Source of the DNA: Pyrinomonas methylaliphatogenes
GTDB lineage: Bacteria; Acidobacteriota; Blastocatellia; Pyrinomonadales; Pyrinomonadaceae
Assembly: GCF_000820845.2 (NCBI RefSeq)
Contig: NZ_CBXV010000001.1
Coordinates: forward strand, 186,001 to 250,000
DNA: 64,000 nt
Direction of reading: 5' to 3'
Part shown: positions 18,317 through 36,298 of the stretch, piece by piece
Layout: every line of letters starts with the position of its first letter
Numbering within the stretch: the first letter of the stretch is position 1
Notes under the pieces: generated by a model
What the model was told of the DNA's origin: nothing
Database searches by the model: none
Seen by the model: only the letters and a program-made list of their open reading frames with translations
Position numbers and translations under genes: made by a program

Positions 18317-18352
18317 CGCCGACCCTTCGAATTCCGACAGCGCGCTTCCTGC

Positions 18353-20449
18353 TCATTTTGGCTCTCGGGTGAACCACGCTTTCACCTCCGCTTCCAGCGC
18401 CTTCAGATCGGGTCGCCTTTCAGCGATGGCGAGCGATTCGCGGTATTCACGTTCGAGATCGCCGAGGTCGAGTTTCGCGCCGTCGCGGATGAAGATCGGG
18501 ATCTGATAGAGTTCAGCGCGCACTTTGATCGTCTGTCCACCTTCGTAGACTTTTTCGGGATGCCACGCATCACGCCATTTCGCGCCTCGCGGCAGATAGA
18601 CCTCTTGCACTCGTCGCCCTTTCTCCCAGATGGGCGAGACCAGAATGTCCGGACCGTAAAGATAGGTCCACCAGTTGGTCCACGCCTCCGGCGCGCGCGG
18701 ATCGATGAGGAAAAGCGGCCTGACGATGGGCATCCCGGTTTCGTGCGCTTCGCGGGCGCAAGCGTAGCTATAATCCGCCAGCTTCTCGTGCAAACGTGCA
18801 TAGAGCCGCCAGATGGCGATCAACGTCGTGTCGTAGCTCGGTTGGCGCGGCAGATTCCAGAACCCGACGTTGCGCGTCGGTCCGACCTCCATGATCGGCG
18901 TAAAAGCGCTGAAAGCGAGCCAGCGACCGCAGACCTCCTGCTCTAGCAATTGCTGGTTATAACCGCAGGTGTCCGATCCCCAGTTCGGATAGCCCATCAC
19001 AGCGGCGCGTTGCACGGCGATGATCGAAGCGCGCAAGCCTTCTTGCGTCCCGCCGATGTCTCCGCCCCAGAAGACGCCGTAAGGCGAGCTGCCCGTGTAG
19101 GCGGCGCGCGGCATCAGGATAAAATCGTCGCCACGATGTGTGCGCGCTACGTCGTAGGTCGCTTTGAGATAGAGCACCGGATAGATGTTGCGGTTCTGGC
19201 GGATCGAGCGGCCATCGAAGACGCGCGATGGGCCATCATCTGGGATATCCTCTTCGCCGCGGTCGAGCTTGAAACCGGCAACGCCGAGCCGTAAGAGTTT
19301 CTCGACGCCGCTTTGCCAAAAAGCTTTCGCCTGTGGGTTAGTGAAATCGACGAGCGGGTAGTTGTTCCCGTTAGGCGGGCGCTTCTGGTCCGGGAGGTTG
19401 TAACCCTTGGCCAGCGCCTCTTCGGCCATCTTGCCTTGAAAGAACGGGCCGATCCAAAGGACCGTTCGGATCCCTTGTTCGTTCAACCAGCGGACCATGG
19501 CGGCGAAATTCGGGAGCCGTTTCGGATCTATCTCGAAATCGTCGTATCCCCACAGCCCTGTCCCCCACGGGCGATCTATCCAGTAGACGCCGCACGGGAT
19601 GCCGAACGCCTTCATCATCAAGATGTCTTCCATCACTTCGGAGTTGAACGGTCCGGTGACGGGCGTCCCATCGTAATAGGTTGCGCGGTGCGTGTGCTCA
19701 TCGCGCCAGCGCCATGGAGCGTAGATCCAGCGCGGCGGTAAAATAGGTGGTCCAGCTTCGAGCGCGTGCGCGCGCACGAGTCGCGCTGGATCGCGCGCCG
19801 TGTAGATCTTCAGCTCGAGCGCCGGACCCTCGAACTCGATGCGAACGCGCCTGGGATCGCTCGCCGCGAAGTCGAAGCGACCGGGCCACTCGCTCCGAAC
19901 GAACACGGCGTAGCCGCGCGATGAGAGGTAGAACGGAGCGTAAACAGAAGTGGTCGGCTTGAGGATCATCTCAACCTGCTGACCGCGCAAATCCATCGCC
20001 GCCCGTAGACCCGGCGCCCACGAAGCGGCCTGTGGGCCATCGACGACGCGCTCCATCAGACCCGTATAGTACTCGTCGGGAGCGGCTTCGATGCTCAACC
20101 CCCACTTGGCGATGTCGGACGCAGGCGCGGCGCTCATGCGTAAAAGGAAATCATCCCCTTCCCGCTCGACCGAAAGCCTGACGGCGCGCCCATCGGGCAT
20201 CTTCGCTTCGCTCGCTCCGCGGTCGCGCGCGCGGGCCGTAAGCTCCGCGGGGAGCGGGAAGCGTTCGCCGCCCTTTGTTTCGTAGAAAAAACCGTCGAGC
20301 AGAAGAGAACGATCCTTGCGTTCGCTGCGCGCATCGAGTTGATCTGAGCGCAAGACGAGCGCGGCGCCGCTCCTTTCGATTTGCGATCGCGCTTCACCGC
20401 ACACGAACGCGAGAAGCAATAGAGCGTAAACTTTTGTCATCATCATCAT
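18353..20449 (-). CDS. Secreted GH31 glycoside hydrolase
   Basis: A protein of about 698 residues with a signal peptide (TKVYALLLLAFVCGEARSQ). The GH31 barrel carries the nucleophile Asp396 in GFKLDRGEE and the acid/base Asp464 in WGGDIGGTQEG, plus the substrate motif YWIDRPWG and a C-terminal beta-domain (GPDILVSPIWEKG). GH31 includes alpha-glucosidases, alpha-xylosidases and alpha-galactosidases; the neighbours suggest a pectin side-chain sugar. Several consecutive ATGs (20449-20438) follow GAAGAG; an ATG at 20476 is also in frame but has a poorly spaced ribosome binding site. Confidence 0.9.
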   Translation of the reverse strand: MMMMTKVYALLLLAFVCGEARSQIERSGAALVLRSDQLDARSERKDRSLLLDGFFYETKGGERFPLPAELTARARDRGASEAKMPDGRAVRLSVEREGDDFLLRMSAAPASDIAKWGLSIEAAPDEYYTGLMERVVDGPQAASWAPGLRAAMDLRGQQVEMILKPTTSVYAPFYLSSRGYAVFVRSEWPGRFDFAASDPRRVRIEFEGPALELKIYTARDPARLVRAHALEAGPPILPPRWIYAPWRWRDEHTHRATYYDGTPVTGPFNSEVMEDILMMKAFGIPCGVYWIDRPWGTGLWGYDDFEIDPKRLPNFAAMVRWLNEQGIRTVLWIGPFFQGKMAEEALAKGYNLPDQKRPPNGNNYPLVDFTNPQAKAFWQSGVEKLLRLGVAGFKLDRGEEDIPDDGPSRVFDGRSIRQNRNIYPVLYLKATYDVARTHRGDDFILMPRAAYTGSSPYGVFWGGDIGGTQEGLRASIIAVQRAAVMGYPNWGSDTCGYNQQLLEQEVCGRWLAFSAFTPIMEVGPTRNVGFWNLPRQPSYDTTLIAIWRLYARLHEKLADYSYACAREAHETGMPIVRPLFLIDPRAPEAWTNWWTYLYGPDILVSPIWEKGRRVQEVYLPRGAKWRDAWHPEKVYEGGQTIKVRAELYQIPIFIRDGAKLDLGDLEREYRESLAIAERRPDLKALEAEVKAWFTREPK

Positions 20450-20501
20450 CTCTTCGGTCGAAATCAGTTTCATCACTGCGTTTGCTTCTCTTCCTCTAAC
20501 G

Positions 20502-21788
20502 TCAATTGCCCAAAGGTTTCGGCCCGAGCTGCGTTGGGCTTGCCGGCAGCTTGAAGCTCTCCGGCGGATCAGGATGATGCGGATCGAACGGGCGAACGTC
20601 GTTGGCCAAATAACGGACTAAATCCAGGTCGCTCCGCCTGATCCCTTCGATGACGGCGCGCGCAAGCTCGTATGCCCCGTAGGCGTTATGATGCGTATTG
20701 TCGCCCTCTTTGAAAGCGAGTTTAGAGCGTTCTGGCCCGAGCGCTTCGTAAAAAGCTTCGCTCATGGCGTTCAAATCGATCAGCGGCACGTTGAGCTCGC
20801 GCGCCACTTGGCGCATCGCCTTCGGGTAATCGCCGTGCGAGTTGATTATCTTGCCAGTCGCATCGAACGTTCGACGGTGGACCGGCGTGATGAGCACAGG
20901 GATCCCGCCGCGTTGGCGCGCCCTTTCGACGAAAAGGCGCAGCGCTTCTTTGTAGGTCGTAAACGGCCCGCCGCCTTTCTCCTTCTCATCGTTGTGGCCA
21001 TATTGGATGAGCAGATAATCGCCCGGCTTCATCGCGCTTAGTACTTTGTCGAGCCGATGCGCGGCGAGCGAGCTGCGAAGCGATTCACCCGATTCGGCGT
21101 GATTGGCGATGGCGATTGCGGGACCGAAGAAGCGCGGAAGCATCTGGCCCCAACTGCTATATGGTTCGAGCGGTTGATCGCAGACGGTCGAATCGCCGAG
21201 CAGAAAGACGGTCGGAACATCGGCGCGGCTTATCTCGAGCGCGGCGATAGCCGGATGCTCGCCATTGAATTCGAGCGTCAATCTCTCGTCCCACGCCCAC
21301 GCCTCGATCTCTTTTTCGCGCTCTTTCAATCGGACCTCGCCGTCGCCTGTGATGTGCGGCGTGCGAACGTTTACGACGAACTCTCGCGTCTGAAATTGGC
21401 CCGGAGCGGTCTCGACCCGTTCGAGCATCAAGCGGCGCAATTCGGCTTTGACGGTCGTCGCCGTCGCCTCCCTGGCATCGCCGAGGATGATCTTCACGCG
21501 ATAGTTGCCTTCGGGAAGCGCGACCGAAAAGAAGAATGGGCGATCACTCGTGCAAAGATCACGGCGCAGATCATCTGGTCCACCGCGGTCCAAGCATGAG
21601 ATGTGCGCTCCGGGTTCAAATCCATAACCGCGCCTCTTGCTGTACACGGTCGTCGGCAGAACTTGCGTATAACCGGAAGCGACCGGACCGGAACCGAAAT
21701 CGAATTTGAGATGGAGCGGTCGCGTCGAAGCGCGGGCTTCGGCGAATGTGCTGGCGAGAAAGATGAACGCGATAAGAATGGTGCGCAT
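20502..21788 (-). CDS. SGNH esterase with N-terminal carbohydrate-binding-like domain
   Basis: A 428-residue secreted protein. After the signal peptide (ending AEARAS), residues 25-175 form a beta-rich domain (LKFDFGSGPVASGYTQV, GNYRVKIILGD) like the galactose-binding-fold N-terminus seen in some rhamnogalacturonan acetylesterases. Residues 180-400 form the SGNH domain: FLLGDSTVCDQ with the Ser, GHNDE, and NTHHNAYGAYELA with the His. It is likely a second pectin or rhamnogalacturonan acetylesterase with different specificity from the 17315 gene. The ATG at 21788 fits the signal peptide; an in-frame TTG at 21803 is less likely. Confidence 0.85.
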   Translation of the reverse strand: MRTILIAFIFLASTFAEARASTRPLHLKFDFGSGPVASGYTQVLPTTVYSKRRGYGFEPGAHISCLDRGGPDDLRRDLCTSDRPFFFSVALPEGNYRVKIILGDAREATATTVKAELRRLMLERVETAPGQFQTREFVVNVRTPHITGDGEVRLKEREKEIEAWAWDERLTLEFNGEHPAIAALEISRADVPTVFLLGDSTVCDQPLEPYSSWGQMLPRFFGPAIAIANHAESGESLRSSLAAHRLDKVLSAMKPGDYLLIQYGHNDEKEKGGGPFTTYKEALRLFVERARQRGGIPVLITPVHRRTFDATGKIINSHGDYPKAMRQVARELNVPLIDLNAMSEAFYEALGPERSKLAFKEGDNTHHNAYGAYELARAVIEGIRRSDLDLVRYLANDVRPFDPHHPDPPESFKLPASPTQLGPKPLGN

Positions 21789-21878
21789 CCTTTTGCTTCT
21801 CAAGGTAGAGCGCTTCCGTCTCGGCGCGAAGCTCGAAAGGGCAGCGCCTCGTTTTTGAGGCGCTGCCGCGTCTTAAAG

Positions 21879-24506
21879 TTACGGGGTCGCTGTGATCACC
21901 GTCGCAGCTTCTGCCAGTCCTTCCGCTTGGGCGCGCACGCGGATCGTGCCAGCGCGCCCCGTCGAGCGCACGATGACGAGGCAGAGGCCATTGAAGGCTC
22001 TCATCTCGTTCGCTTTAAACGGCATGTGGCTCGTCGCGTCGCCGTTCGCGACGGCGACGATCTCGCCCGGCCCGTCAATATGGAAGCGTATGAGATTGTG
22101 CGTGCGCGGGACCGTCAGTCCATCGCGGTCGGTGATGCGGACGGTGATGAAAGCGAGATCCTTGCGATCGGCGCGAATCCGCACGCGATCCGGGTTGAGA
22201 GAGACTCGCGCGGCTGGCCCGGTCGTGCGCACCGTAGTTTCGGCCCATTTCCGTCCGTTCTTGTAGGCGACGGCGCGCAAGCTCCCCGGCTCGTATACGA
22301 CATCATCCCACCGTAACCGGTACTGGCCCGGCCCTTTCTTGCGCCGCCCGAGCGAGCGCCCGTTCAAGAAAAGCTCCACTTCGTCGCCCGACGTGTAAAC
22401 GTGCACGGGCACGTTCTGACCGATTCGTTCGGGCCAGTTCCAGTGCGGCAGGATATGGACCATCGGAAGGTCTGGACGCCAGCGGGCTTGGTAGAGGTAG
22501 AAGCGATCCTTGGGGAAACCGCAAAGATCGATGATCCCGAAGTAGGAGCTGCGCGAGGGGACGCTGATCTTGCCACGCTCGCGCAACTCGCGCTCGGCAC
22601 GCGCGCGCAATTCCGCGTCGGTGAAGGCGAGCATGGTGGTCGAGTCTCCGCCGTAAGGCGTCGGCTCGCCAAGATAGTCGAACCCGGTCCAGACGAATTC
22701 GCCTGCGACGAACGGATATTGATCTTGCGCCGCAAATTCGGTGTCAGGCGTCGTCGCCCAAGGTGGCGCGTAAAGGTCGTAGGAGCTGACTTGAAAATTG
22801 AAGAACCCTTTGCTTTTGTCGTCCGAAACAGGGAAGAAGTATTCGCCGCGGGAGCTGACGGTCGAAGCCGTCTCCGAGGCGACGAGCGGTATGTTTGGAT
22901 TCGCTCGCCTGAACTTCCCGTACTCCATCGGTTTGTAGTTGTAGCCGAAAACATCGACTATCTTCTGAAAGCCGTTATAGCCGGCTTCCGTGAAGTTGCA
23001 CGCTGCCGTCACGGGGCGCGTCGGATCTTCTTCGTGCGCGATGCGGACAAGCTCCGTGGCGATCTGGATGCCTTCGGGAGAATTCTGTTCGAGTATCTCG
23101 TTGCCGATGCTCCAGAGGATGATCGACGGATGGTTCCGGTCGCGTCGGAGTTGCGCGCGCCAATCCTTCTCGTGCCAATCATCGAACAGCAGATGGTAAT
23201 CGTTCTCTTTCTTCCCGCGACGCCAGCAATCGAAAGCTTCATCCATCACGAGGAAACCCATGCGATCGCAGAGATCAAGCAGTTCCGGCGCCGGCGGATT
23301 GTGGCTCGTGCGGATGGCGTTAGCGCCCATCTCTTTGAGCAGCTCAAGCTGGCGTTCGAGAGCGCGCACGTTAAGCGCCGTGCCCAGCGGTCCGAGATCG
23401 TGATGGTTGCAGACGCCCTGAATCTTCACCCGCTTGCCGTTGAGCAAGAAGCCTTGTTGCGCATCGAAGCGGATCGTGCGCACGCCGAACCGCGTCTCGT
23501 ACTCATCGACGGGGCGACCGTTCGCGATGACGGTCGTCACCGCGACGTAGAGATTCGGGTTCTCGATGCTCCACAGCTTGGGCGCGCGTATCTTGGCTTG
23601 CGCGACCGCGCTACCGTTCGCGCCGGAAGCGACGCTGATCTCGACCGGTTGCGCGACGGCGACCGTTGCCGGAAGCGGTCGGCCATCGGCTCCGAGTTGG
23701 TGAATGCGCGTCCTGATGGTGACAGCGGCGGGAGCGGGCGACGCGTTCGCGACCGTCACTTCGACGTTGACGGTGGCCGAGGTGGGCGAAACTTCCGGCG
23801 TCGTCACGTATGTCCCCCAGTGAGCGACATGCACGGGCCCCGTCTCGACCAGCCAGACGTTGCGGTAGATGCCGCCTCCCGGATACCAGCGCGAGCTTTC
23901 CGGCGGATTGTCCAGCCGTATGGCGAGGACGTTCTCGCGGCCCGGCTCAATGTATGGCGTCAGGTCCAAAGCGAACGAAGCGTAACCGTAGGGCCAGCCG
24001 CCGACGAACCGGCCGTTCAACCACACAAGCGCGTAGGCCATCGCGCCGTCTATCTCCAAAAGGAAACGCCGACCGTCGCTGGAGCGCGGGACGGTGAAAT
24101 GCTTTCTATACCAACCGACTCCCCACCATGGGAGTTTGCCCGATTCTCCCGGATACTCCTGCTTGAAAGGTCCTTCGATCCCCCAATCGTGCGGGAGTTC
24201 GACCGGCTGCCAGTCGCGATCGTCGAAATCTGGGCGCGTGTAGGCGACCTCTTCCCCCAGATTGCCGCTCGGTCGCTCGCGCCTTTTCGTCGGATCGCGC
24301 GTAAATTCGTTGCCCGTCGCCAGCACCCACTCTTTGATCCGCGCGTAACTTAAGACGCCTTCCGCTCCGGGCGGATCGCCCTTGCGAAATCGCCAATCGG
24401 AATTGAAAGACACGCGCTCGCGTAAAACGGCGCCCTCTGCGCCCACGATGAGCAGAGCGATGACGAAAGCCGCTCGCCAGATTTTGGATACCGTCTCTTT
24501 CTTCAC
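21879..24506 (-). CDS. Secreted GH2 beta-glycosidase, DUF4982-type
   Basis: An 875-residue enzyme of the Bacteroides-type GH2 beta-galactosidase/beta-glucuronidase group. The order is signal peptide, jelly-roll (FNSDWRFRKG, WWGVGWYRKHF), immunoglobulin-like domain, TIM barrel with acid/base Glu470 in WSIGNEI and nucleophile Glu545 in ASETAS, then DUF4982 and a C-terminal Ig-like domain (TVRTTGPAARVSLN). The start is a GTG at 24506 behind GGAGGAG. Probable role: removal of beta-galactosyl or glucuronosyl side chains from pectin. Exact specificity cannot be read. Confidence 0.9.
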   Translation of the reverse strand: MKKETVSKIWRAAFVIALLIVGAEGAVLRERVSFNSDWRFRKGDPPGAEGVLSYARIKEWVLATGNEFTRDPTKRRERPSGNLGEEVAYTRPDFDDRDWQPVELPHDWGIEGPFKQEYPGESGKLPWWGVGWYRKHFTVPRSSDGRRFLLEIDGAMAYALVWLNGRFVGGWPYGYASFALDLTPYIEPGRENVLAIRLDNPPESSRWYPGGGIYRNVWLVETGPVHVAHWGTYVTTPEVSPTSATVNVEVTVANASPAPAAVTIRTRIHQLGADGRPLPATVAVAQPVEISVASGANGSAVAQAKIRAPKLWSIENPNLYVAVTTVIANGRPVDEYETRFGVRTIRFDAQQGFLLNGKRVKIQGVCNHHDLGPLGTALNVRALERQLELLKEMGANAIRTSHNPPAPELLDLCDRMGFLVMDEAFDCWRRGKKENDYHLLFDDWHEKDWRAQLRRDRNHPSIILWSIGNEILEQNSPEGIQIATELVRIAHEEDPTRPVTAACNFTEAGYNGFQKIVDVFGYNYKPMEYGKFRRANPNIPLVASETASTVSSRGEYFFPVSDDKSKGFFNFQVSSYDLYAPPWATTPDTEFAAQDQYPFVAGEFVWTGFDYLGEPTPYGGDSTTMLAFTDAELRARAERELRERGKISVPSRSSYFGIIDLCGFPKDRFYLYQARWRPDLPMVHILPHWNWPERIGQNVPVHVYTSGDEVELFLNGRSLGRRKKGPGQYRLRWDDVVYEPGSLRAVAYKNGRKWAETTVRTTGPAARVSLNPDRVRIRADRKDLAFITVRITDRDGLTVPRTHNLIRFHIDGPGEIVAVANGDATSHMPFKANEMRAFNGLCLVIVRSTGRAGTIRVRAQAEGLAEAATVITATP

Positions 24507-24619
24507 TTTTGAGCGCTCCTCCAACGTGACGATGGATCGAAAAGCGATCTCGAACAAAAACGATTCCGCGCCGTTTTGTCAAGATGTTCGCTCGCTGATC
24601 ATGAGCGACGCGCGCGCCG

Positions 24620-27600
24620 TCAAGGGCGAGTGGCGCGCCGCGGCATCGGGCGATCGGGCGCTTCATCCACATCTGGACTGGCGGAGCGCTGGCGTTGGTA
24701 GCGAATCGAACCGTCGCCGTTTTCGCCAAGCGGTGGTCCGGCGTAGATGACGGCCAGTTCCGCGAGCGCTGCCGTCTGGTCATCGGCGAAGCCGGAGAGC
24801 GCAACCAGTTTCAGATGGCGCGTCGTGATCGTTTGCGCGAAAGCGATCCGCTGCGGCGCGAAGGTCGAGACCAGTTCGCCGCGCTTCACCTCATGCCAAG
24901 TCGCCCCATCGTCGCTCGCCAAAAGTAGATACTCGCGTATGTCGCCCTCGTGTTCGCGGTGATTCTGACGCGGCATAATGACGACTCCCGAGATGGCGGT
25001 CGGCGATGGGAAGCGGATCACTAGTTCGTGTGGATAAGGGTGCCGAGAGGAGAACCAGTACGTGTTCGGATCGCCATCTATCGCGCGAGCGGCATCGCCC
25101 TCGTCGGCGTGGGCTGTCGCGCCGAGTTTGCTCATGATGCGCGTGTCAAAGAGCAGCCCGCGTATGGCTGAAGCCGCGACGCTCACGCGCGGCTGAAAAC
25201 GCGCGCTCGCCATGTAATCGAGCAATGAACGGCGCAGTTGACGCGCCGCCGGGCGCTCCGCCAGACGATCGATGAGGTCGATGGCGCTCACCAGCAAGCG
25301 ACCGCGCCCGACGCGGCATTCGAAGATCACGCCGAGTTTGTAGTTCCGGTTCCAATCATCTATCGCGTAGACGACGGGTTCGAGTTCGCGCGGCAGCGAG
25401 TCGAGATTGATGGCGCGCACGCCGCGGATGAGATCCGCCCATTGCCAATCGAAATATGAGCGGGTCGGAAAGCGCGCGAAGGCCGGATGGCGTTCATCTA
25501 TCCAGAGGCCGAGCATCCGACTCCAAGCCGGATTCATCTGCCGGTTCCAGAAGATCGGCACGACGTCGAGCGGCGGGCTGGTCCAGTCTAGATCGGCGAC
25601 GCGCGGGATGAAGAGCACTTTGCCGCCTTCGGCAAGGCGCGTTTCCGCTTCTTCCCATGATCGCGTGATCAGAATGTCGCGCGGTGCGGTTGTGTCCACG
25701 CGCGCCGGATAGATCCAGAAATCCCAATCGTTCTCCGCTTGCGTGCCGCGCAATCCGACGATCAGCCGATAAGCGCGCGGCGCCGGAAACTTCGCCAGCT
25801 CAACCTCGATCTTGCCGAGCGGGATGTTCTTGCCGATGGGGATCGTGCGCTTCGGCCATTCGCCTTGCGCGACGATCTTGCCGTCGGAATCGGCGATCTT
25901 CCAATAGGGCGTCGCCTTTTCGAGCGGCGCCGGCCCATAATGGGCGATCTCCACATCAACCGCGAAAAGATCGTCGGTCGTGAAGACGCGACTTGGTAAA
26001 CGGGCGAGCGGCACCGTCGGACCGCAGAAGCGACGGAACTCTTCCGCCGTCACATAGCCTTTCTGCTCCCAGAACGGATCGAGCACGCCGACGAGCGCCG
26101 TGCCTTGGCCCAAATAGTCATGCAGATCGAGCAGTTGAAAGCCGCTCAGCCCGGGCGTGCGCAAGTTGGCTTCGATCTCCTCTTTGTAGCACGCGAGTTG
26201 AAAGCGCCCGGAGGCGAAGGCGAAATCCTTGTCTTTCGCCAGAAGCCCATGCGCCGCCATCGACGCGCGAAAGATCTCGTAGTTGCCCGGGCGCAGATAG
26301 CCAGTGAACTTCTTGATCACGTCGTAATCTGGATAGGCGCTCCATTGACCCAGTTCATGCACGATCACGGGCACGTCAACGCCGCGCAACGAACGCGAGT
26401 AATCGAGCCCGAACCAAGCCGACGGGCCGCGCAGCATGTTCGGCCCGATGCGATGAACGGCCAAGTAATCGGCTCCCTTGACCGGTCCGGGCGCATCGAT
26501 CAAAGACCACCCGGTGCCGGTCGTGTAGAGCCGGCGCGGATCTTCGCGCCTGAAATGCTCGACCCAGCGAGGCAAAGCCTCTTTCCATCTCCCGCTCGGC
26601 TCATTGCTCGGCGAAAGGAGCATGAACGATGGGTGATTCCCGTAAGCGCGAATCATCCGCTCGGTCTCTTCATAAAGCATGCGCTCCATCTCCGTGCCCG
26701 GGCTGATCGCGTTCCACATCCCGGCTTCCGGTTGCAGATAGAAACCTAGTTCATCCGCCGCGATGAAGGCCGCTTCCGGCGGACAGAAGGAGTGAAAGCG
26801 CATGTGATTCAGGCCCCAGGATTGACAGAGGCGGATGAGCCGCCGCCAGTACTCGACATCCGTCGGCGGATAACCGGTCAAAGGGAAATCCCCGCCGTGA
26901 TGCGTCCCGCGAAAGATGATGGGGCGCCCGTTGAGCAAAAAGCGCGTGCCATCGGCGCGCAGGCTCCTCAGGCCGAAGGTCACTTGGCGCGTGTCGTCGG
27001 CCCCATCGCCCACAAGTCGCACGGTGAGCTTCTGCAACGCTGGGTTGAACTCATCCCACGTTTGCGCGTTCTGGTCCAACGCGATCTCAAGCTCGGCGCT
27101 CCCACCTTGGGCGCCCCACGAAGCCGGAACGCTCGCCCCGTTCACCGTGAGCGTGCCGGTGCCGGCCCGACCCGTGATGTTGCCGATCTGAACCTTGACG
27201 CGCGCTGAGCGCTTCTCGATATCGGGAAAGACCTGCACGTCGTCGAGCCACACGGGCGTCGTCGCCTGAAGCTCGATCCGCCCGACGATGCCGTTCCACG
27301 TCCCGCCCAGCGAATCGGAGACGCTGTGCGCGTCCGGGCGATAAGGCATGATCAACCGATTGTCGATGCGGATCGTCAAACGGTGTTTCCCAGTAGTTAA
27401 CTGGCCGAGTTCGTAAACGTGCGGCGCGACCAAACTGCGGCAAGAACCGATCTCGCGATCGTCAAGCCAGACGGTCGTCTCCCAATGAGGCCGCTCCAGA
27501 AAGAGCGCGATCCGTTTCCCGGACCAGGCAGCGGGAATCTCTAGGTCGCGCTGATACCACGCCGGGCCAAGATAGTGGCGCGGCGGTTGCGCAAGAAAAG

Positions 27601-27919
27601 GCACGCGAACGTTGCCCGGTTGCGCCGCCGCCCGATACTCGGCGCGCAAGTACCAGTGGCGATCATAGAGCGACAGCACCCATGGCGTCGCCGTGCTGAT
27701 CTCGTCGCCATAACCTTGCTCCTGAAGCGAGCCGGGAAGGCGGATCCGATCCGCAAGGTCGCGCGCAAACCAGCGCCCTTCGATGCCTTGGTCGTGCGGG
27801 TCGAGCGCGAATCGCCACGCGCCCGCCAGATCCAACCGCGCTTGGGCCGTCGAAGCGGATGCCGAAAGCAGGATCAGCGCGATGGATGCGAGAAACGGCG
27901 AAGAACGATAGGTCGGCAT
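24620..27919 (-). CDS. Secreted GH2-like enzyme with C-terminal F5/8-type domain
   Basis: A 1099-residue secreted protein with a cleavable signal (LLSASASTAQA), GH2 sugar-binding domain (DLAGAWRFALD, WYQRDLEIP, WLDDREIGSC), Ig-like domain and TIM barrel with acid/base Glu440 in LLSPSNEPSG and nucleophile Glu522 in VIVHELGQW. A region of unknown fold follows, then an F5/8 type C (CBM32-like) domain at about 935-1060 (AIDGDPNTYWFSS, GVVIMPRQN). The active site is intact but differs from classic GH2 motifs, so specificity may be unusual. It is the first gene of the minus-strand hydrolase operon, 32 bases after the predicted transcription start. Confidence 0.85.
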   Translation of the reverse strand: MPTYRSSPFLASIALILLSASASTAQARLDLAGAWRFALDPHDQGIEGRWFARDLADRIRLPGSLQEQGYGDEISTATPWVLSLYDRHWYLRAEYRAAAQPGNVRVPFLAQPPRHYLGPAWYQRDLEIPAAWSGKRIALFLERPHWETTVWLDDREIGSCRSLVAPHVYELGQLTTGKHRLTIRIDNRLIMPYRPDAHSVSDSLGGTWNGIVGRIELQATTPVWLDDVQVFPDIEKRSARVKVQIGNITGRAGTGTLTVNGASVPASWGAQGGSAELEIALDQNAQTWDEFNPALQKLTVRLVGDGADDTRQVTFGLRSLRADGTRFLLNGRPIIFRGTHHGGDFPLTGYPPTDVEYWRRLIRLCQSWGLNHMRFHSFCPPEAAFIAADELGFYLQPEAGMWNAISPGTEMERMLYEETERMIRAYGNHPSFMLLSPSNEPSGRWKEALPRWVEHFRREDPRRLYTTGTGWSLIDAPGPVKGADYLAVHRIGPNMLRGPSAWFGLDYSRSLRGVDVPVIVHELGQWSAYPDYDVIKKFTGYLRPGNYEIFRASMAAHGLLAKDKDFAFASGRFQLACYKEEIEANLRTPGLSGFQLLDLHDYLGQGTALVGVLDPFWEQKGYVTAEEFRRFCGPTVPLARLPSRVFTTDDLFAVDVEIAHYGPAPLEKATPYWKIADSDGKIVAQGEWPKRTIPIGKNIPLGKIEVELAKFPAPRAYRLIVGLRGTQAENDWDFWIYPARVDTTAPRDILITRSWEEAETRLAEGGKVLFIPRVADLDWTSPPLDVVPIFWNRQMNPAWSRMLGLWIDERHPAFARFPTRSYFDWQWADLIRGVRAINLDSLPRELEPVVYAIDDWNRNYKLGVIFECRVGRGRLLVSAIDLIDRLAERPAARQLRRSLLDYMASARFQPRVSVAASAIRGLLFDTRIMSKLGATAHADEGDAARAIDGDPNTYWFSSRHPYPHELVIRFPSPTAISGVVIMPRQNHREHEGDIREYLLLASDDGATWHEVKRGELVSTFAPQRIAFAQTITTRHLKLVALSGFADDQTAALAELAVIYAGPPLGENGDGSIRYQRQRSASPDVDEAPDRPMPRRATRP

Positions 27920-27953
27920 ATCGATCCGTCATGAGGGGATGGTCGAGCTTAAA

Positions 27954-27985
27954 GATCATAATATCATCTTTCGAGATTATGACAA
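27954..27985 (-). promoter_or_regulatory. Divergent promoter of the hydrolase operon with operator over the -10
   Basis: On the minus strand: -35 TTGTCA (27980-27985), 16-base spacer, -10 TATTAT (27958-27963). The -10 lies within GATGATATTATGATC (27954-27968), a relative of the palindrome at the rhaD and receptor promoters. A bound regulator would block this promoter. Confidence 0.65.
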
Positions 27986-28011: not shown

Positions 28012-28062
28012 GATGATATCGTCATCTTATGATCTTGCAATTTCTCGCGCCTTGGCTATACT
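28012..28062 (+). promoter_or_regulatory. rhaD promoter with two palindromic operators
   Basis: Operator GTCAT-CTT-ATGATC (28021-28034) abuts the -35 TTGCAA (28035-28040); a 16-base spacer and -10 TATACT (28057-28062) follow. A second inverted repeat, GATGA-N5-TCATC (28012-28026), overlaps its left side. The same layout occurs at 52701 and 56842. Confidence 0.75.
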
Positions 28063-28112: not shown

Positions 28113-30299
28113 ATGGAGAGAGAGTTCAAGCATGTCAAATATCTGTGGCGCGACGAGGAGGTCGCCGGCCTTTCGCCGCTCGATCGGTTGGTCTATCGCT
28201 CAAATAAACTCGGCGAAGACATCACCCTGACCAACACGGGCGGCGGCAACACCTCGGCGAAGCTCATCGAGAGGGATCCGCTCACCGGCGAAGAGGTCGA
28301 GATCCTGTGGGTCAAGGGATCGGGCGGCGATCTCAGAACGGCCAAGCGCGACGGGTTCGCCTCGCTCTACTTGGACAAAGTGCGCGCGATGAAGGCGCTT
28401 TACCTTCGCCATCCGGAGCGCGGGCCGAAGACTCCCGTCGAAGATGCGATGTACCCGCTCTATGCGCATTGCGTCTACAATTTGAATCCGCGCGCCTGTT
28501 CGATCGACACGCCGCTTCACACTTTCGTCCCTTACAAGCATGTGGATCACTTGCATCCGAACGCCGTGATCGCGATTGCCGCCTCTGTCAATCAGGAGCG
28601 GCTGTGTCGCACAATTTACGGCGACGATGTGATCTACGTCCCGTGGCAGCGACCGGGTTTCGATCTCGGATTGAAGATCGAGCAGTTGATCAAGGATCAT
28701 CCGCGCGCCCGCGGCGTCCTGCTCGGTCATCACGGCATGAGCTCCTGGAGCGATGATGACAAGACCTGTTACGAGACGGCGCTCGAGATCGTCGAGCGTG
28801 CGGCGCGCTATATCGCCGAGCGCGATCGCGGCGAGCGGACTTTCGGCGGTTTGAGGTACCGGCCCATCTCGGATGGCGAACGGCGCAGGATTCAGGTCGA
28901 GATCATCCCGTGGTTGCGCGGGCAGCTTTCGGTTGAAAGGCGTTTCGTCGCGACGGTGCAGGATGATGAGCGGGCGCTGTGGTTTGTCAACAGCGTCGAG
29001 GGGCCGCGATTGGCCGAACTCGGCACGTCATGCCCGGACCATTTCCTGCGGACTAAGATCAAGCCCCTATTTGTCGATTGGGATCCCGAAAGCGGCGACG
29101 TCGAACGCTTGAAGGGCTTGCTCGGCGAGGGGCTTGAGCGATATCGGCGCGACTATGCGGCTTACTATAACCGTTGTCGGCGTCCAGATTCGCCGCCGAT
29201 GCGCGATCCCAATCCGACAGTGATCTTGATCCCCGGACTCGGCATGATCGCTTGGGGCAAGAACAAGAGCGAGTCGCGCATGACGGCGGAGTTCTACAAT
29301 TGCGCCATCGAGGTGATGCGCGGCGCTGAGGCGATCGACGAATACGAAGCGCTCGATGAGCAGGAAGCCTTTGACATCGAGTATTGGTCATTAGAAGAGG
29401 CCAAGCTCCGCCGTCTGCCGCCGGAGAAGGAGTTAGATCGGCAAGTGGCCGTCATCATCGGCGCCGGTTCCGGCATCGGGCGGGCGGCGGCGCACCGTCT
29501 ATCGAAGGAAGGGGCGCACGTCGTCTGCGTGGATTTGGATGAAGAGGCGGCCCAGCGCACGGCGCAGGAGATCGTCGCCGTGCGCGGCGAAGGGCTCGGC
29601 GTCGCCGGTTCAGGGATCAGCGGTTGCGGGCCGGCGATCGGTTTGCGGTGTGATCTGACGGATCGGCGCACGATCGCGCGCGCCTTTGAAGACGCGATCC
29701 TCGCCTTTGGCGGGATAGATGCGGTCATCGTCACGGCGGGCATCTTCGTCCCGCCGGACCGGGCCGGGCGCGTCTCGGATGAGGATTGGGCGCGCACCTT
29801 CGCCATCAACGTCACGGGCGCGTACATCGTCGCCGACGAAGCGCGACGGGTCTTCGAGCGGCAGAGTTTGAAGGGCGGGAGCATCGTTTTGACGACGAGC
29901 GCCAACGCTGTCGTCGCGAAGAAGGGAAGTTTGGCGTATGACGCGAGCAAAGCGGCGGCCAACCATCTCGTGCGCGAGTTAGCCGTTGAGCTTGCGCCGC
30001 TCGTGCGCGTCAACGCGGTGGCGCCGGCCACGGTCGTCCGTGGAAGCGCGATGTTCCCGCGCGATCGGGTCATCGCTTCGCTGGCGAAGTACGGGATTCC
30101 GTTTGATGAGAGCGAGTCAACCGATGTCTTGCGCGAGAAGTTGGCGAACTTCTACGCGCAACGGTCGTTGCTTAACGTGCCGATCGAGCCGGAGGATCAG
30201 GCCGAGGCGATCTTCTTGCTCGTCTCCGCGCGCCTTGGCAAAACGACTGGGCACATCATTCCGGTCGATGGCGGTTTGCAGGATGGGTTCTTGCGCTAG
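28113..30299 (+). CDS. rhaD: Bifunctional rhamnulose-1-phosphate aldolase/lactaldehyde dehydrogenase
   Basis: A fusion of 728 residues. The N-terminal class II aldolase half splits L-rhamnulose-1-phosphate into DHAP and L-lactaldehyde (TNTGGGNTSAKL, zinc-site segment HVDHLHPNAV, GHHGMSSW). The C-terminal short-chain dehydrogenase half (VIIGAGSGIGRAAA; catalytic YDASK) would oxidise L-lactaldehyde to L-lactate with NAD. This is the RhaEW-type arrangement. The frame is open upstream to 28029, but that point lies inside the promoter. ATG 28113 (or 28110) next to GGAGG is the realistic start. It is the first gene of the plus-strand rhamnose operon. Confidence 0.93.
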   Translation: MEREFKHVKYLWRDEEVAGLSPLDRLVYRSNKLGEDITLTNTGGGNTSAKLIERDPLTGEEVEILWVKGSGGDLRTAKRDGFASLYLDKVRAMKALYLRHPERGPKTPVEDAMYPLYAHCVYNLNPRACSIDTPLHTFVPYKHVDHLHPNAVIAIAASVNQERLCRTIYGDDVIYVPWQRPGFDLGLKIEQLIKDHPRARGVLLGHHGMSSWSDDDKTCYETALEIVERAARYIAERDRGERTFGGLRYRPISDGERRRIQVEIIPWLRGQLSVERRFVATVQDDERALWFVNSVEGPRLAELGTSCPDHFLRTKIKPLFVDWDPESGDVERLKGLLGEGLERYRRDYAAYYNRCRRPDSPPMRDPNPTVILIPGLGMIAWGKNKSESRMTAEFYNCAIEVMRGAEAIDEYEALDEQEAFDIEYWSLEEAKLRRLPPEKELDRQVAVIIGAGSGIGRAAAHRLSKEGAHVVCVDLDEEAAQRTAQEIVAVRGEGLGVAGSGISGCGPAIGLRCDLTDRRTIARAFEDAILAFGGIDAVIVTAGIFVPPDRAGRVSDEDWARTFAINVTGAYIVADEARRVFERQSLKGGSIVLTTSANAVVAKKGSLAYDASKAAANHLVRELAVELAPLVRVNAVAPATVVRGSAMFPRDRVIASLAKYGIPFDESESTDVLREKLANFYAQRSLLNVPIEPEDQAEAIFLLVSARLGKTTGHIIPVDGGLQDGFLR

Positions 30300-30326: not shown

Positions 30327-31619
30327 ATGGGATTCGAGATCGACGATGAGTTCATCGCGAAGCAGAATCGCAAGCTGGAAGCGGAGCTGGAAACCGATTA
30401 TGCGCACCTCGGCGAGGTGTTGCGCCGCAGAGGGATCGATATCGAAGAGGTGACGAAGAGGGCGCAAGCGTTTCGCGTCGCGTTGCCTTCATGGGGCGTG
30501 GGCACGGGTGGGACGCGCTTTGCCCGTTTCCCGGGGCCGGGCGAGCCGCGCGACATCTACGACAAGCTGGAAGATTGCGCGACCATCTTCAAGCTCGTGC
30601 GCGTGACGCCGTCGGTTTCGCTTCACATCCCGTGGGATAAGGCGGACGATCTGCGCGCTTTGCGCGAATTTGCCTCTTCGCGCGGCCTCAGCTTCGATGC
30701 GATGAACTCGAACACGTTTCAGGACCAACCGGACCAGCGGCTCTCTTACAAGTTCGGTAGCCTCACGCATCCCGATCGCGCCGTGCGCGAACAGGCGATC
30801 GCGCACAACATCGAATGTATAGAGATAGGCCGAGCCTTGGGATCGCGCGCGCTGACCGTTTGGATAGGCGATGGGGGAAACTTCCCCGGGCAGATAGACT
30901 TTCGGCGCGCGCTCGAACGCTATCTTGAGAGCATGGGCGAGATCTACGCCGCCCTGCCCGATGATTGGCGCCTCTTTATCGAATATAAGCTTTATGAGCC
31001 GGCCTTCTATTCGACCGTCATCAATGATTGGGGGACGGCTTACTACTGCGCGTGCCGTTTGGGCGAGAAGGCCTTCTGTCTCGTCGATCTGGGGCATCAT
31101 GCGCCGAATTCGAACGTCGAGATGATCGTCGCGCGCCTCGTTCAATTTGGCAAGCTCGGCGGGTTCCATTTCAACGACAGCAAATACGGCGATGATGATC
31201 TCGATGCGGGTTCGATCAAGCCTTTTCAGCTCTTCCTCATCTTCAACGAACTGGTCGCTGCCGAGCTTGAAGGGGCATCGGGATTCGATCCGAGCTACAT
31301 GATCGACGAGTCGCACAACGTGACCGATCCTATCGAATCGTTGATGATGAGCGCGATGGAGATCGTGCGCGCTTACGTGCAAGCCACGCTCGTCGAACGC
31401 GAAGCGCTCCGCGAAGCGCAAGACGCTTGCGACGCGATCGCCGCGCTGGCGACGCTCAAGCGCGCCTTCAACACGGATGTGACGCCGATTCTGGCGATGG
31501 CACGGCGACGCGCGGGCGGCGCGATCGACCCGATCGCCGTCTATCGCGCGAGCAACTATCGTCAGCGCAAAGCGGAAGAGCGCCCGGTCAGCAAGGGGAC
31601 GTTCGCTGGAATAGTCTGA
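30327..31619 (+). CDS. rhaI: L-rhamnose isomerase, RhaI type
   Basis: A 430-residue TIM-barrel isomerase converting L-rhamnose to L-rhamnulose, of the Pseudomonas stutzeri/Bacillus RhaI class rather than E. coli RhaA. Seen in the sequence are SLHIPWDKADD, the metal ligands in FIEYKLYEPAFYSTV, LVDLGHHAPNSNVE, and GGFHFNDSKYGDDDLDAGS. The ATG at 30327 follows TTGGAGGAGACC. It lies 27 bases after rhaD, within the operon. Confidence 0.95.
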   Translation: MGFEIDDEFIAKQNRKLEAELETDYAHLGEVLRRRGIDIEEVTKRAQAFRVALPSWGVGTGGTRFARFPGPGEPRDIYDKLEDCATIFKLVRVTPSVSLHIPWDKADDLRALREFASSRGLSFDAMNSNTFQDQPDQRLSYKFGSLTHPDRAVREQAIAHNIECIEIGRALGSRALTVWIGDGGNFPGQIDFRRALERYLESMGEIYAALPDDWRLFIEYKLYEPAFYSTVINDWGTAYYCACRLGEKAFCLVDLGHHAPNSNVEMIVARLVQFGKLGGFHFNDSKYGDDDLDAGSIKPFQLFLIFNELVAAELEGASGFDPSYMIDESHNVTDPIESLMMSAMEIVRAYVQATLVEREALREAQDACDAIAALATLKRAFNTDVTPILAMARRRAGGAIDPIAVYRASNYRQRKAEERPVSKGTFAGIV

Positions 31620-31754
31620 GCGCATTTCAAAAGCGCGCCGGTCAGAGAAGCTTAAATCTTCAGGTCGTTCATGCGTGGCGCGCCAGCCGTTGCTAGAAGG
31701 GCGCGGGATGCTTTCGCTCATTGAACCTTTTCTGCTGATCGGCAAAGTGTGAAG

Positions 31755-33248
31755 ATGGGTGAAGATGCGTTGCACATCGCCGTCGATCTCGGGGCCGGTA
31801 GCGGGCGCGTCTTCCTCGTCCGCTTCGGAGAGGAGGAGTTGAGGCTCGATGAGGTGCGGCGGTTCCACTATCCGCCGGTGGAGTCCGAGGGCCATTTGCG
31901 GTGGGATCTTCTGCGCATCTTCGACGAGATCAAAGCTGGAATCCATGCTGCCGCTTCGCGCGCGCGCCATTCGCATCGCCCCATCTCGAGCATCGGCGTT
32001 GATAGTTGGGGCGTCGATTACGGCCTTGTAGATGCCGATGGGCAATTGGTCGAGCTTCCGGTCTGCTATCGTGACGCGCGCACGCGCGGCGTGATGGAAG
32101 AGGTCTTCGCGCAGGTGCCGCGCGCCGAGATCTTCGCCCGCACTGGGATACAGTTCCTTCCGTTTAATACGCTTTTTCAGCTCTACGCGCACGCGCGCGA
32201 AGGGTTGCCGAAGGGCGCGCGCAAGTTGTTGTTGATCCCCGATCTCATTAATCTCTTTCTGACCGGGCGCGCGGCGAGCGAATGGACCAACGCGACGACG
32301 ACGCAATTGGTCAATGCGCGCACGCGCGCATGGGATCGGGAGCTGGCGGAGAGGCTGGATCTTCCGGTCCAGCTGCTGGCTGAAATCGTCCCCGCGGGGA
32401 CTGACTTAGGGCGATTGAAGAAGGGATTGGCCGATGAGCTAGGGTGCGGTGATGTGCGCATCGTCGCTCCGGCCACGCACGATACTGGAAGCGCGGTCGT
32501 CGGCACGCCGCTCGAAGAAGGCTGGGCCTATATCTCTTCGGGGACGTGGTCGTTGGTCGGCGTCGAACTGGACCAGCCATTGATCAACGACGATGTGGCG
32601 CGCTGCAATCTGACCAACGAAGGCGGAGCATTCGGGACCGTTCGCTTTCTGAAGAACGTGATGGGGCTGTGGATCTTCGAAAGGTGCCGCGCCGAGTGGG
32701 GCGGTGGAGATTACGGCGCGCTGCTTCGCGAAGTGTCGGAGATCGATGAGCCCGTGCCACTCATCTTCCCCGATGATGGGCGGTTTCTCAATCCGCCGAG
32801 CATGTTGGAGGCGATCCGCGCGCAGCTCGAAGAGACGGGGCAACGCGCGGCGTCGGAACCGGCGGTGGTTGCCAAGACGGTGCTCGATTCCTTGGCTTTG
32901 CGTTACGCTTCGGTTCTGCGCGTGATCGAGCGTCTGACCGGAAGGCGGATCTCCGGAGTGCGGATCGTCGGCGGCGGAAGTCGCAACGACTATCTCAATC
33001 AAGCGACGGCGAATGCGACCGGTTTGCCCATCATCGCTGGTCCGGTGGAGGCGACCGTCATCGGCAATGCGGCGGTGCAAGCGATCTTTGCCGGTCGTTT
33101 CCCTTCGCTCGCGGAAGCGCGGCGGCATGTTGCGCGGCATTGCGAGGCGAGGGAGTTTGCGCCGCGCGAGGGGTGGGATGAAGCGAGGCGCCTTTACGCC
33201 GAGGTCGAGGCGCGATACGAAATGGCGAATGAAAGCGCGGCGCGTTGA
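31755..33248 (+). CDS. rhaB: Rhamnulokinase
   Basis: A 497-residue FGGY-family sugar kinase that phosphorylates L-rhamnulose at O1. The ATPase fold motifs are complete: VDLGAGSGRVF (phosphate 1), IGVDSWGVDYGLVD (catalytic Asp region), THDTGSAVVG, SSGTWSLVG and the C-terminal adenosine motif VGGGSRNDYLNQ. GTG 31749 and ATG 31755 are both possible starts, two codons apart, and neither has a strong ribosome binding site. Spacing of about 130 bases from rhaI suggests the same transcript. No rhamnose mutarotase gene was found in the window. Confidence 0.95.
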   Translation: MGEDALHIAVDLGAGSGRVFLVRFGEEELRLDEVRRFHYPPVESEGHLRWDLLRIFDEIKAGIHAAASRARHSHRPISSIGVDSWGVDYGLVDADGQLVELPVCYRDARTRGVMEEVFAQVPRAEIFARTGIQFLPFNTLFQLYAHAREGLPKGARKLLLIPDLINLFLTGRAASEWTNATTTQLVNARTRAWDRELAERLDLPVQLLAEIVPAGTDLGRLKKGLADELGCGDVRIVAPATHDTGSAVVGTPLEEGWAYISSGTWSLVGVELDQPLINDDVARCNLTNEGGAFGTVRFLKNVMGLWIFERCRAEWGGGDYGALLREVSEIDEPVPLIFPDDGRFLNPPSMLEAIRAQLEETGQRAASEPAVVAKTVLDSLALRYASVLRVIERLTGRRISGVRIVGGGSRNDYLNQATANATGLPIIAGPVEATVIGNAAVQAIFAGRFPSLAEARRHVARHCEAREFAPREGWDEARRLYAEVEARYEMANESAAR

Positions 33249-33367
33249 GCGCCATCGGTGAGGATCACCAAGCGATCGCTAGCTTGCGAGACAGGATCAG
33301 GCATCATCGGCAAGGGGATTGGCAACCCGCTTGCGACCGGAATGATTTTCGAGGCCGCCCGAGTTAA

Positions 33368-34654
33368 ATGAGGAAGGAGAGTTTCATCCATCCGCGCGAT
33401 GAGATCATGCGGACGATGGATCGCATCTATCGTTACCGCATGACGACGACATCCGGCGGCAACATATCTTTGCGCGAGGAGGATGGCGCGATTTGGATCA
33501 CGCCCGCGGGCGTCGATAAGGGTAACTTGCGGCGCGAGGATATCGTTTGCGTGCGGCCCGACGGCAGCGTCGAAGGGCGCCATCGTCCATCGTCGGAACT
33601 CCCTTTTCATCGAAAGATCTACGAGGCGCGTTCGGACCTGCACGCCATCGTGCACGCGCACGCGGTCGCGCTCGTCGCTTTCAGCATCACGCGACAGGTG
33701 CCAAATACGCTCCTCTTTCATCAGGCGTGGCGCGTTTGCGGGCAAGTCGCTTTCGTGCCCTACGCGCTGCCGGGAAGCGATGAGTTGGGCGAGCGGATCG
33801 CGCGCGCGTTCGCCGCGGGAGCGGATTGTGCTGTGCTCGAAAATCACGGCGTGGTCGTCGGCGGGCGCGATCTTCAGCAAGCTTTCCAGCGCTTTGAGAC
33901 TCTGGAGTTTGTCGCCAAGACGATCATCAAGGCGCGACTTCTCGGCGAGGTGCGCTATCTGGACCGGTCGGCGGCGGAACTCGGCGAACGGGTCACGCCG
34001 TTAGATGAGTTCGAGCGCGAACCGCCGACCAATCGCGAGAAGGAGTTGCGCCGCGAACTGGCTGAGTTCATGCGGCGCGGCTATCAGCAGCGGCTTTTCA
34101 TCAGCACGGCGGGAAGCTTTTCGGCGCGCGTCGATGAGGATTCTTTCATCATCACGCCTTTCGAAGCGGATCGGCATGCGTTGCGCGCTGAAGATTTCGT
34201 CCTCATCCGCGGCGGCAAGTGTGAAGCGGGCAAGCGCCCGAGCCGGGCCAGCCGCAACCATCAGGCGATCTATGCGCGCCATCCCGAAGTGGGAGCGATT
34301 CTGAACGCTTCGCCTGTGAACGCGATGGCTTTCGGCGTCACCGATGCGCCGCTCGATTCGCGCACCATTCCGGAAAGTTACCTGTTGCTGCGCGATATCG
34401 CGCGCATCCCGTACGGCGTGCAGTTTGTCAGGCCAGATGATTTGGCCGCGCGTGTGAGCGCGCGCTCTCCGGTCGCGTTGCTCGAAAACGATGGTGCGTT
34501 AGTGCTCGGAAGAAGCATCCTCGAAGCTTTCGACCGGTTGGAAGTGTTGGAATCGACGGCTGAATCTTTGATCAACGGGCGATTGCTCGGCGCGATCGCG
34601 CCGATGTCGGATGAGACGATCGAGGAGTTAAAGCGGCGTTTCGCCCTCGCCTGA
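33368..34654 (+). CDS. Tandem class II aldolase/adducin protein with degenerate second domain
   Basis: A 428-residue protein made of two class II aldolase domains. The first (1-205) keeps Glu77 in SSELPFH and zinc ligands His97, His99 (VHAHAV) and His160 (ENHG). In the second (225-425) the matching positions read Asn313-Ala-Ser315 (NASPVNA) and Asp374 (ENDG), so it cannot bind zinc in the usual way. The N-terminal half may act on a fuculose- or rhamnulose-phosphate-like substrate; the C-terminal half is likely structural or regulatory. Its place between rhaB and the transporter suggests a second route for deoxy-sugar phosphates. The start codon has a weak ribosome binding site. Confidence 0.85.
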   Translation: MRKESFIHPRDEIMRTMDRIYRYRMTTTSGGNISLREEDGAIWITPAGVDKGNLRREDIVCVRPDGSVEGRHRPSSELPFHRKIYEARSDLHAIVHAHAVALVAFSITRQVPNTLLFHQAWRVCGQVAFVPYALPGSDELGERIARAFAAGADCAVLENHGVVVGGRDLQQAFQRFETLEFVAKTIIKARLLGEVRYLDRSAAELGERVTPLDEFEREPPTNREKELRRELAEFMRRGYQQRLFISTAGSFSARVDEDSFIITPFEADRHALRAEDFVLIRGGKCEAGKRPSRASRNHQAIYARHPEVGAILNASPVNAMAFGVTDAPLDSRTIPESYLLLRDIARIPYGVQFVRPDDLAARVSARSPVALLENDGALVLGRSILEAFDRLEVLESTAESLINGRLLGAIAPMSDETIEELKRRFALA

Positions 34655-34674
34655 AGTTGGACCGGGTTGTTGCG

Positions 34675-36162
34675 ATGAAGCCTTTGCTACAGGTTCGCGC
34701 CATCGACAAATCTTATGCCGGCGTGCAGGCGTTGCGCGATGCTCATCTGGAGCTGTTTGCGGGCGAAGTTCATGCGCTCGTCGGCGAAAACGGGGCCGGG
34801 AAATCGACGCTCATCAAGATCATCACCGGGGCGGTCGAGCCGGACGGCGGCGAGATCTGGTTGAACGGGCAGCGTGTGGCGGAGATTTCGCCGCGCCGCG
34901 CCAAAGAGCTCGGCATCGCCGCCATCTACCAGCAGCCGGCGCTCTTTCCCGAGTTGAGCGTTGCCGAGAACATCGCGCTCGGACTGGAAAGCGGTGGGTT
35001 GTTGGCGCGCGTCAATTGGCGCGCGCGGCGGCAGCAGGCCGCTGCGCTTCTCGCGCGAGTCGGGGCGCGCATCTTACCCGACCGCGAGGCTGGGGCGCTC
35101 ACGATGGCCGAGCAGCAATTGGTTGAAATCGCGCGCGCCATCGGCGCACGCTCACGCATCCTCATCATGGATGAGCCGACCGCTGCGCTTTCTGAAGAAG
35201 AGACGCGCCATCTTTTTCGCGTCATCGGCGAACTTCGCGATGCAGGCGTTGCCGTCATCTACATCTCGCATCGATTGGAGGAGCTTTCGGCGATCGCGGA
35301 TCGCGTCACGGTTTTGCGCGACGGGCGGACCATCGGAACCTATCGGATGGAAGAATTGGACCGCCAACAGTTGATCCGTTTGATGGTCGGGCGCGAGCTT
35401 TCGGCGGTCTTCCCGTGGCGCGCGCGCAAGTTGGGCGAGCCGGTCCTCGAGTTATGTGACTTCGGATCATCAACCGCGGGGATCGAGAACATCAATCTCA
35501 CCGTGCATGCCGGAGAGATCGTCGGGTTGGCGGGGCTTGTCGGCGCTGGAAGGACCGAGCTTGCGCGCGCGATCTTCGGCCTTGTGCCCGCCGATCGCGG
35601 CGAACTGCGTTTGCGCGGCGTGCCCGTCAGGATCGGCGATCCGACGCAAGCTATCGCTTGCGGCATCGCCTATCTGCCCGAGGACCGGCAGCGTCACGGC
35701 GTCATCCCGGAGATGGCCATCAGCGCCAATATCACGCTCGCTTCGCTCGACGCGCTCGCCAGCCCGTGGGGGATGGATTTTCGACGTGAACGTGCGATCG
35801 CCGCCCATTACGTTCAGCGGCTCGGCATCAAGACGCCGTCCATCTATGCGCCGGTCCAGACGCTCTCCGGCGGAAATCAGCAGAAGGTCGCGCTCGGTCG
35901 TTGGCTGGCGACCGAGCCGCAGGTCATCATTCTCGACGAGCCGACGCAGGGCGTGGATGTCGGCACGAAAGCGGAGATCCACCGGTTGATGATCGAGTTG
36001 GCAGCGCAAGGCGCGGCGATCCTGATGATCTCTTCGGAAATGCCGGAGCTACTCGGGATGAGCGATCGCATCGCCGTGATGCGCGAGGGAACCATCGTCG
36101 CACAGCTTGCGCGCGAAGAGGCGACGCAGGAGCGCGTGCTCGCGCTCGCCTTGGGCCAGTAG
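34675..36162 (+). CDS. Sugar ABC transporter ATP-binding protein, CUT2 type
   Basis: A 495-residue duplicated ATPase that powers the sugar importer. The first half has Walker A GENGAGKST, signature-like LTMAEQQLVEIARA and Walker B ILIMDEPTAAL. The second half has the degenerate P-loop GLVGAGRTELAR usual for CUT2 ATPases, signature LSGGNQQKVALGRW and Walker B IILDEPTQGVD. I use the ATG at 34675 (MKPLLQVRAIDKSY) because an in-frame TTG at 34657 adds no conserved residues. It starts 20 bases after the aldolase. Genomic context points to L-rhamnose. Confidence 0.93.
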   Translation: MKPLLQVRAIDKSYAGVQALRDAHLELFAGEVHALVGENGAGKSTLIKIITGAVEPDGGEIWLNGQRVAEISPRRAKELGIAAIYQQPALFPELSVAENIALGLESGGLLARVNWRARRQQAAALLARVGARILPDREAGALTMAEQQLVEIARAIGARSRILIMDEPTAALSEEETRHLFRVIGELRDAGVAVIYISHRLEELSAIADRVTVLRDGRTIGTYRMEELDRQQLIRLMVGRELSAVFPWRARKLGEPVLELCDFGSSTAGIENINLTVHAGEIVGLAGLVGAGRTELARAIFGLVPADRGELRLRGVPVRIGDPTQAIACGIAYLPEDRQRHGVIPEMAISANITLASLDALASPWGMDFRRERAIAAHYVQRLGIKTPSIYAPVQTLSGGNQQKVALGRWLATEPQVIILDEPTQGVDVGTKAEIHRLMIELAAQGAAILMISSEMPELLGMSDRIAVMREGTIVAQLAREEATQERVLALALGQ

Positions 36163-36298
36163 CGCGCCACGTCGTCGGATGTGAAGTTCGTCCGTTCGCG
36201 CGGAGAACGTGCGGTCAGAGCGGGGAAAGCCCATTGCTCGCGTTCGGCGTTTCGGAAAAGGGGCGCGATCCGCGATCGGTTCGCGAAGCTTTCATTCG

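Follow-up and report, generated by a model that had tools for sequence, protein, structure and literature searches.

Which regulator controls the rhamnose/rhamnogalacturonan locus of Pyrinomonas methylaliphatogenes, and can a single operator serve its catabolic, uptake and degradation genes? The locus is contained in the window analysed here, a stretch of 64,000 nucleotides at 186001-250000 of contig C1 in a 3.79 Mb genome (Table 1). Judging by order and spacing, the genes from the rhaI-type isomerase to the sugar ABC transporter are probably part of a rha operon, while the leftward genes from GH2b to the OMP receptor probably form one operon of their own. According to Pfam, another GH2 gene is also found to the right of gntR, beside the GH106 gene and the two large receptors. 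The gntR gene itself starts at GTG 45898 or, from comparison with relatives, at ATG 45916. Two further frames are of separate interest: at 37239-39323 a sugar ABC permease is fused to a periplasmic binding protein in one frame of 694 residues, with similar full-length matches in loci L049 and L056, and 44161-44934 encodes a 257-residue protein without a Pfam match, whose counterparts in L056 and L058, likewise close to gntR, are 64-74% identical.

Table 1. Genes and operator-promoter elements of the locus (window coordinates)
Feature	Position	Strand	Basis
GH2b, GH2a, GDSL esterase, GH31, GDSL esterase, OMP receptor	13922..27919	-	Pfam
Fifth operator copy AAGATCATAATATCATCTT	27952..27970		One of the three best genome-wide matches to the 19-bp palindrome
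Leftward promoter TTGTCA-N16-TATTAT of the glycosidase/esterase genes	27958..27985	-	Sequence; -10 inside operator copy 27952-27970
rha operon operator and promoter, CGTCATCTTATGATC-TTGCAA-N16-TATACT (operator 28020-28034, -35 TTGCAA 28035-28040, -10 TATACT 28057-28062)	28020..28062	+	Sequence, pattern search
rhaEW, fused class II aldolase and short-chain dehydrogenase	28122..30299	+	Pfam; orthologs 74-77% identical
rhaI-type isomerase, FGGY kinase, class II aldolase, sugar ABC transporter	30327..39323	+	Pfam
gntR degraded operator, -35 TTGTAA, N17, -10 GATAAT	45796..45839	+	Sequence; perfect or near-perfect counterparts 5' of gntR in six relatives
GntR/FCD regulator (gntR)	45898..46593	+	Pfam GntR 1.4e-13, FCD 8.8e-23; orthologs; modelled fold
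GH106 alpha-L-rhamnosidase, after gntR	46774..49548	+	Pfam 6.3e-72
Receptor 1 operator and promoter, CATCATAATATGATC-TTGCGT-N16-TATAAT	52700..52742	+	Sequence, pattern search
Outer-membrane receptor 1, carboxypeptidase-regulatory domain and beta barrel	53183..56716	+	Pfam OMP_b-brl_4 2.7e-200
Receptor 2 operator (perfect palindrome) and promoter, GATCATATTATGATC-TTGCAT-N16-TATAAT	56844..56886	+	Sequence, pattern search
Outer-membrane receptor 2, same kind as receptor 1	57013..61167	+	Pfam OMP_b-brl_4 2.7e-171

One operator is common to the three kinds of genes, with sites at rhaEW, GH2b, gntR and both receptors. An earlier note on this DNA described RTCAT-N3-ATGAT-C set directly against a -35 hexamer beginning with TTG, followed by N16 and the -10, and before rhaEW and both receptor genes this arrangement can be read directly. 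Some details differ: the gene called rhaD is indeed preceded by the module, but by Pfam it is a RhaEW-type aldolase/dehydrogenase fusion, and the receptor 2 module is present but was ended at 56884, 2 bases short of 56886. The degraded copy ahead of gntR is likewise present (TATCATCTTATAACC-TTGTAA at 45796-45816), but not with the N16 spacer proposed for it, the better -10 being GATAAT at N17; this site makes autoregulation of gntR probable. The list of sites was also incomplete, as the copy at 27952-27970 had been missed. This copy covers the -10 of the divergent GH2b promoter, and relaxed 18-19 bp searches of the genome return the same locus first, plus this site. The first ATG of the rhaEW frame (28029) falls within the operator, so that the true start must lie downstream. 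A second element over the rhaEW site (28011-28028, AGATGATATCGTCATCTT) has two mismatches and shifted half-sites and was judged unproven, and a weak resemblance 5' of a GH88/105 gene (10157; matrix score 10.2) was not counted.

The identical phasing claimed for unlinked promoters holds for rhaEW and the receptors, but the receptor promoters match each other over about 45 bp including the spacer, with proteins that are 28% identical. They are probably one duplicated promoter unit and are therefore counted as one case.

The element is rare. Pattern searches of the 3,788,560-base genome for RTCAT-N3-ATGAT-CTTG (RTCATNNNATGATCTTG) gave three exact copies, all in the window (rhaEW and both receptors), against about 0.017 expected from base composition, and a reversed-pattern control allowing up to one mismatch gave 0 matches. 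Run with this longer element, the whole-genome motif scan proposed in the earlier note speaks against random occurrence. TTGNNN-N16 followed by a -10 of at least 5/6 matches is found at only 8 of 127,940 window positions, among them the GH2b promoter and all three exact sites. The short core alone, with one mismatch, matches 10 times in the window compared to 4.9 expected, a count that 7 of 100 shuffles reach; since this enrichment is only marginal, the core alone was dropped as evidence, and the case for significance relies on the longer element and on genome-wide counts. A looser pattern (GATCATNNNATGATC, one mismatch, 13 genomes) was too noisy to interpret. Of 162 genomes of the class, only two contain the exact core GATCATANTATGATC: this genome, at receptor 2, and G149, where the exact palindrome sits 37 bp ahead of gntR. 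Another site in G149 (contig C375), with the same core as 27954, has no rhamnose gene nearby and was judged a chance match.

That the GntR/FCD protein encoded at 45898 reads the operator, as the earlier note inferred, is supported by a matrix test on relatives. Orthologs of gntR (E <= 1e-60) are found in 13 of the 162 genomes, and those carriers that have a name belong to the Acidobacteriota, with Pyrinomonadaceae and Blastocatellia records among them. A matrix was trained on four window sites, excluding that of gntR, and applied to 169,542 bases from 11 relatives carrying gntR. The six best matches all lie in the intergenic region directly 5' of gntR, one per genome in six genomes (G049, -101; G149, -49; G141, -418; G133, -431; G041, -427; G053, -215). 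Their scores of 24.0-16.0 compare with a maximum of 15.0 in 311,572 bases of control loci, which were scored in one orientation, a choice that matters little as the matrix was built symmetric. The stretches of up to 500 bases 5' of gntR account for about 3% of the bases scanned, and chance would hardly place all six best matches there. Furthermore, searches of the whole genomes ranked the gntR site first, alone or tied, in five of the six. G149, which holds the nearest ortholog, has GH2b, a perfect operator and gntR-rhaEW-rhaI-rhaB-ABC in succession, the same divergon as at 27920-28110 here but with gntR as the first gene of the operon. The start codon of this gntR lies about 14 bases past the predicted -10 (L049:2460-2520), which suggests a nearly leaderless transcript.

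The confirmed sites in relatives are located at gntR, including this gntR-led rha operon and gntR genes beside the sugar ABC transporter. The further proposal that sugar catabolism and outer-membrane import fall under one operator fits the sites here, those at receptor promoters being seen in this genome only; gntR itself adjoins receptor genes in G049, G051, G053 and G070. No such site was found 5' of gntR in five orthologs (G045, G157, G159, G051, G070), whose recognition helices differ.

These differences center on position 45, defined by alignment to what we take to be the Escherichia coli FadR sequence and anchored by the shared R49-E50; in the predicted model it starts the recognition helix (residues 45-58). 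The Arg of FadR is replaced by Ile in the window's GntR protein and by Ile/Val in G149, G133, G141, G053 and G049; the site is present in all six. G041, which has the site, carries Thr at position 45, as do G045, G157 and G159, which lack it; G051 and G070, also without the site, carry Gln. Arg45 is retained in the two remaining FCD proteins of this genome. The six Ile/Val proteins form one clade (support 91/92) and hence represent one correlated change rather than many, for which reason the statistical association of Ile/Val with the operator (Fisher p = 0.008) was set aside. The Thr-type orthologs of G045, G159 and G157 stand in a common neighbourhood (L053, L055, L057) without rhamnose genes or operator, and probably differ in role and use a different operator.

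FCD operators usually have the form TKGT-N3-ACMA, with the recognition-helix Arg making the main base-specific contact to G (PMC4494728). A GT...AC core read by such an Arg is not what is found here, where the core is AT-N3-AT and residue 45 is Ile; the site thus differs from FadR GTnnnAC, as had been noted, and the loss of Arg45 would match the exchange of GT-N3-AC for AT-N3-AT. The 3-base gap between the inner dinucleotides is retained (TCAT-NNN-ATGA in the window and at orthologs), with GntR as its presumed binder. Both the GntR winged helix-turn-helix and the C-terminal FCD domain score above the Pfam cut-offs, and the modelled fold matches FCD structures. Since departures from this core have been described (BioR, NanR; PMC4494728), membership in the FCD subfamily rests on the protein domains.

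The same scan ahead of rhaEW in relatives, also proposed earlier, gave a divided result: the site is kept at the gntR-led rha operon of G149, but was not found in the rhaEW upstream regions of 20 other genomes of the class (best matrix score 7.8), and at rha genes it is absent where gntR is absent or unlinked. G053 and G159 carry gntR and rhaEW unlinked and have no site at rhaEW, so control of rha is not universal for this regulator. Eleven of the 20 relatives have GGTTAAGCGGTTT ahead of rhaEW instead (L074-L081, L083-L085), which looks like a LacI-family box. In G023 and G017, GGTTAAGCGGTTT is present and the GH2b/rhaEW divergon is kept; in G146 a LacI-like gene lies directly ahead of rhaEW. 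The same divergon with different elements between lineages indicates that its regulator was apparently replaced, in one direction or the other. Three loci of genus g9 (L079, L080, L083) have TTGGT-NNN-ACCAA-like palindromes 5' of rhaEW, the classic FCD operator form, and no reader protein for these was found nearby.

The reading that we favour, with somewhat more confidence than doubt, is that the palindrome is the operator of GntR/FCD and that this protein is a ligand-released repressor with an altered helix. The operator would be a 15-19 bp palindrome, (AA)GATCAT-ANT-ATGATC(TT), through which GntR would control its own gene, the rha operon, the divergent rhamnogalacturonan glycosidase/esterase genes and the two outer-membrane receptors. 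The ligand-free dimer would block RNA polymerase at the -35 (rha, gntR, receptors) or the -10 (GH2b), and a rhamnose catabolite or oligosaccharide, the presumed ligand, would release it. The protein would keep the 3-base half-site spacing of the FadR-subfamily and, without the G-reading Arg, read AT-N3-AT. The sequences show the sites, their restriction to the locus, the footprint at gntR orthologs and the altered helix; binding by GntR, repression and the ligand are what we infer.

The direction of control can be weighed from operator placement. Measured from the inferred start, the operator is centred at -42 to -44 in eight promoters of five genomes (four here; G149, G133, G049, G053), the promoter call being ambiguous in G149, G133 and G141. 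For G041 the centre is at about -57, and for GH2b at about -10. Provided that GntR binds, repression is fairly likely, favoured by the position of the operator over the -35 or -10, by -10 hexamers near consensus and by autoregulation; activation or dual action would be possible but is not what we expect, although the constant -42/-44 placement beside weak -35 hexamers (3-4/6 matches) also fits a class II activator. FadR activates fabA from about -40, which counts for the same GntR acting on the same operator as a class II-type activator from -42 at rha, gntR and the receptors, perhaps while repressing GH2b at -10. The site over the GH2b -10, the G041 placement and the near-consensus -10 hexamers argue against this, as does the fact that most FCD catabolic regulators repress, and we regard such an activator as rather unlikely. 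More doubtful still is a fuller scenario in which an FCD clade swapped Arg for Ile/Val, gained the AT-N3-AT operator and displaced a LacI-type regulator at GH2b/rhaEW, to act as a class II-type activator at -42 and a repressor at the divergent -10.

A regulator encoded elsewhere (of LacI, ROK or AraC type, for example) might instead read the operator, with gntR as just one target. The degraded site of gntR in this genome would suit this, as would the LacI and ROK genes that relatives have at rha and the AraC, DeoR and LacI families of known rhamnose regulators (PMC3870299). Yet the footprint tracks gntR across contexts (sugar ABC transporter, receptors, rha) rather than rha, the 20 rhaEW loci without a linked gntR are without the site, and the 3-base half-site spacing is of FCD type (PMC4494728), making an outside regulator improbable. 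A copied promoter segment combined with AT-rich promoter composition, with no regulator involved, could account for the receptor pair and for the marginal enrichment of the short core. However, the rhaEW and gntR promoters do not have the spacer common to the receptors, only about 0.02 copies are expected genome-wide against the three found, and the recurrence of the site at gntR in six other genomes makes this explanation very unlikely.

If the preferred reading, a GntR/FCD repressor on its own operator, is true, this family joins those known for rhamnose, and a regulator-operator pair becomes available for Acidobacteriota. These bacteria form a large soil phylum, for which almost no regulon literature was found in open access. 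The locus would also offer a compact test of FCD base-specificity change, with one helix residue and one core base, and close relatives that place this divergon under different operators would illustrate regulator replacement clearly. A survey of rhamnose regulons from 2013 covers AraC-type RhaS/RhaR, DeoR-type RhaR and LacI-type RhaR/RhiR/RhmR and mentions neither GntR nor Acidobacteria (PMC3870299), in C. bescii DeoR proteins are the predicted regulators (PMC8579813), and no GntR-type rhamnose regulator was found in the open-access literature.

Compared to the FadR-subfamily (TKGT-N3-ACMA, PMC4494728), the system has the same GntR winged helix and FCD domain, a palindrome with a 3-base spacer, divergon sites and autoregulation, but differs in its AT-N3-AT core instead of GT-N3-AC and in Ile/Val instead of Arg at position 45; the main text of that paper contains no 'rhamn', so rhamnose is not among the regulons it discusses. 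BioR (FCD, operator TTATMKATAA; PMC4494728) likewise has a palindrome without GT/AC, but with another half-site, a 2-base spacer and biotin genes in alpha-proteobacteria as targets. The best fold and sequence matches of GntR are VanR-type FCD repressors and relatives (Atu1419, 6za3 with DNA; PmiR, 7xp1; McbR, 4p9f; TM0439, 3sxy), which are about 19-25% identical and, judging by record titles, are not rhamnose regulators. The known rhamnose regulators (PMC3870299) also place uptake, catabolism and oligosaccharide degradation under one regulator, but belong to unrelated protein families and use other operators. On the sequence evidence, the regulator described here would thus be of a known kind, with a new operator and a new regulon.
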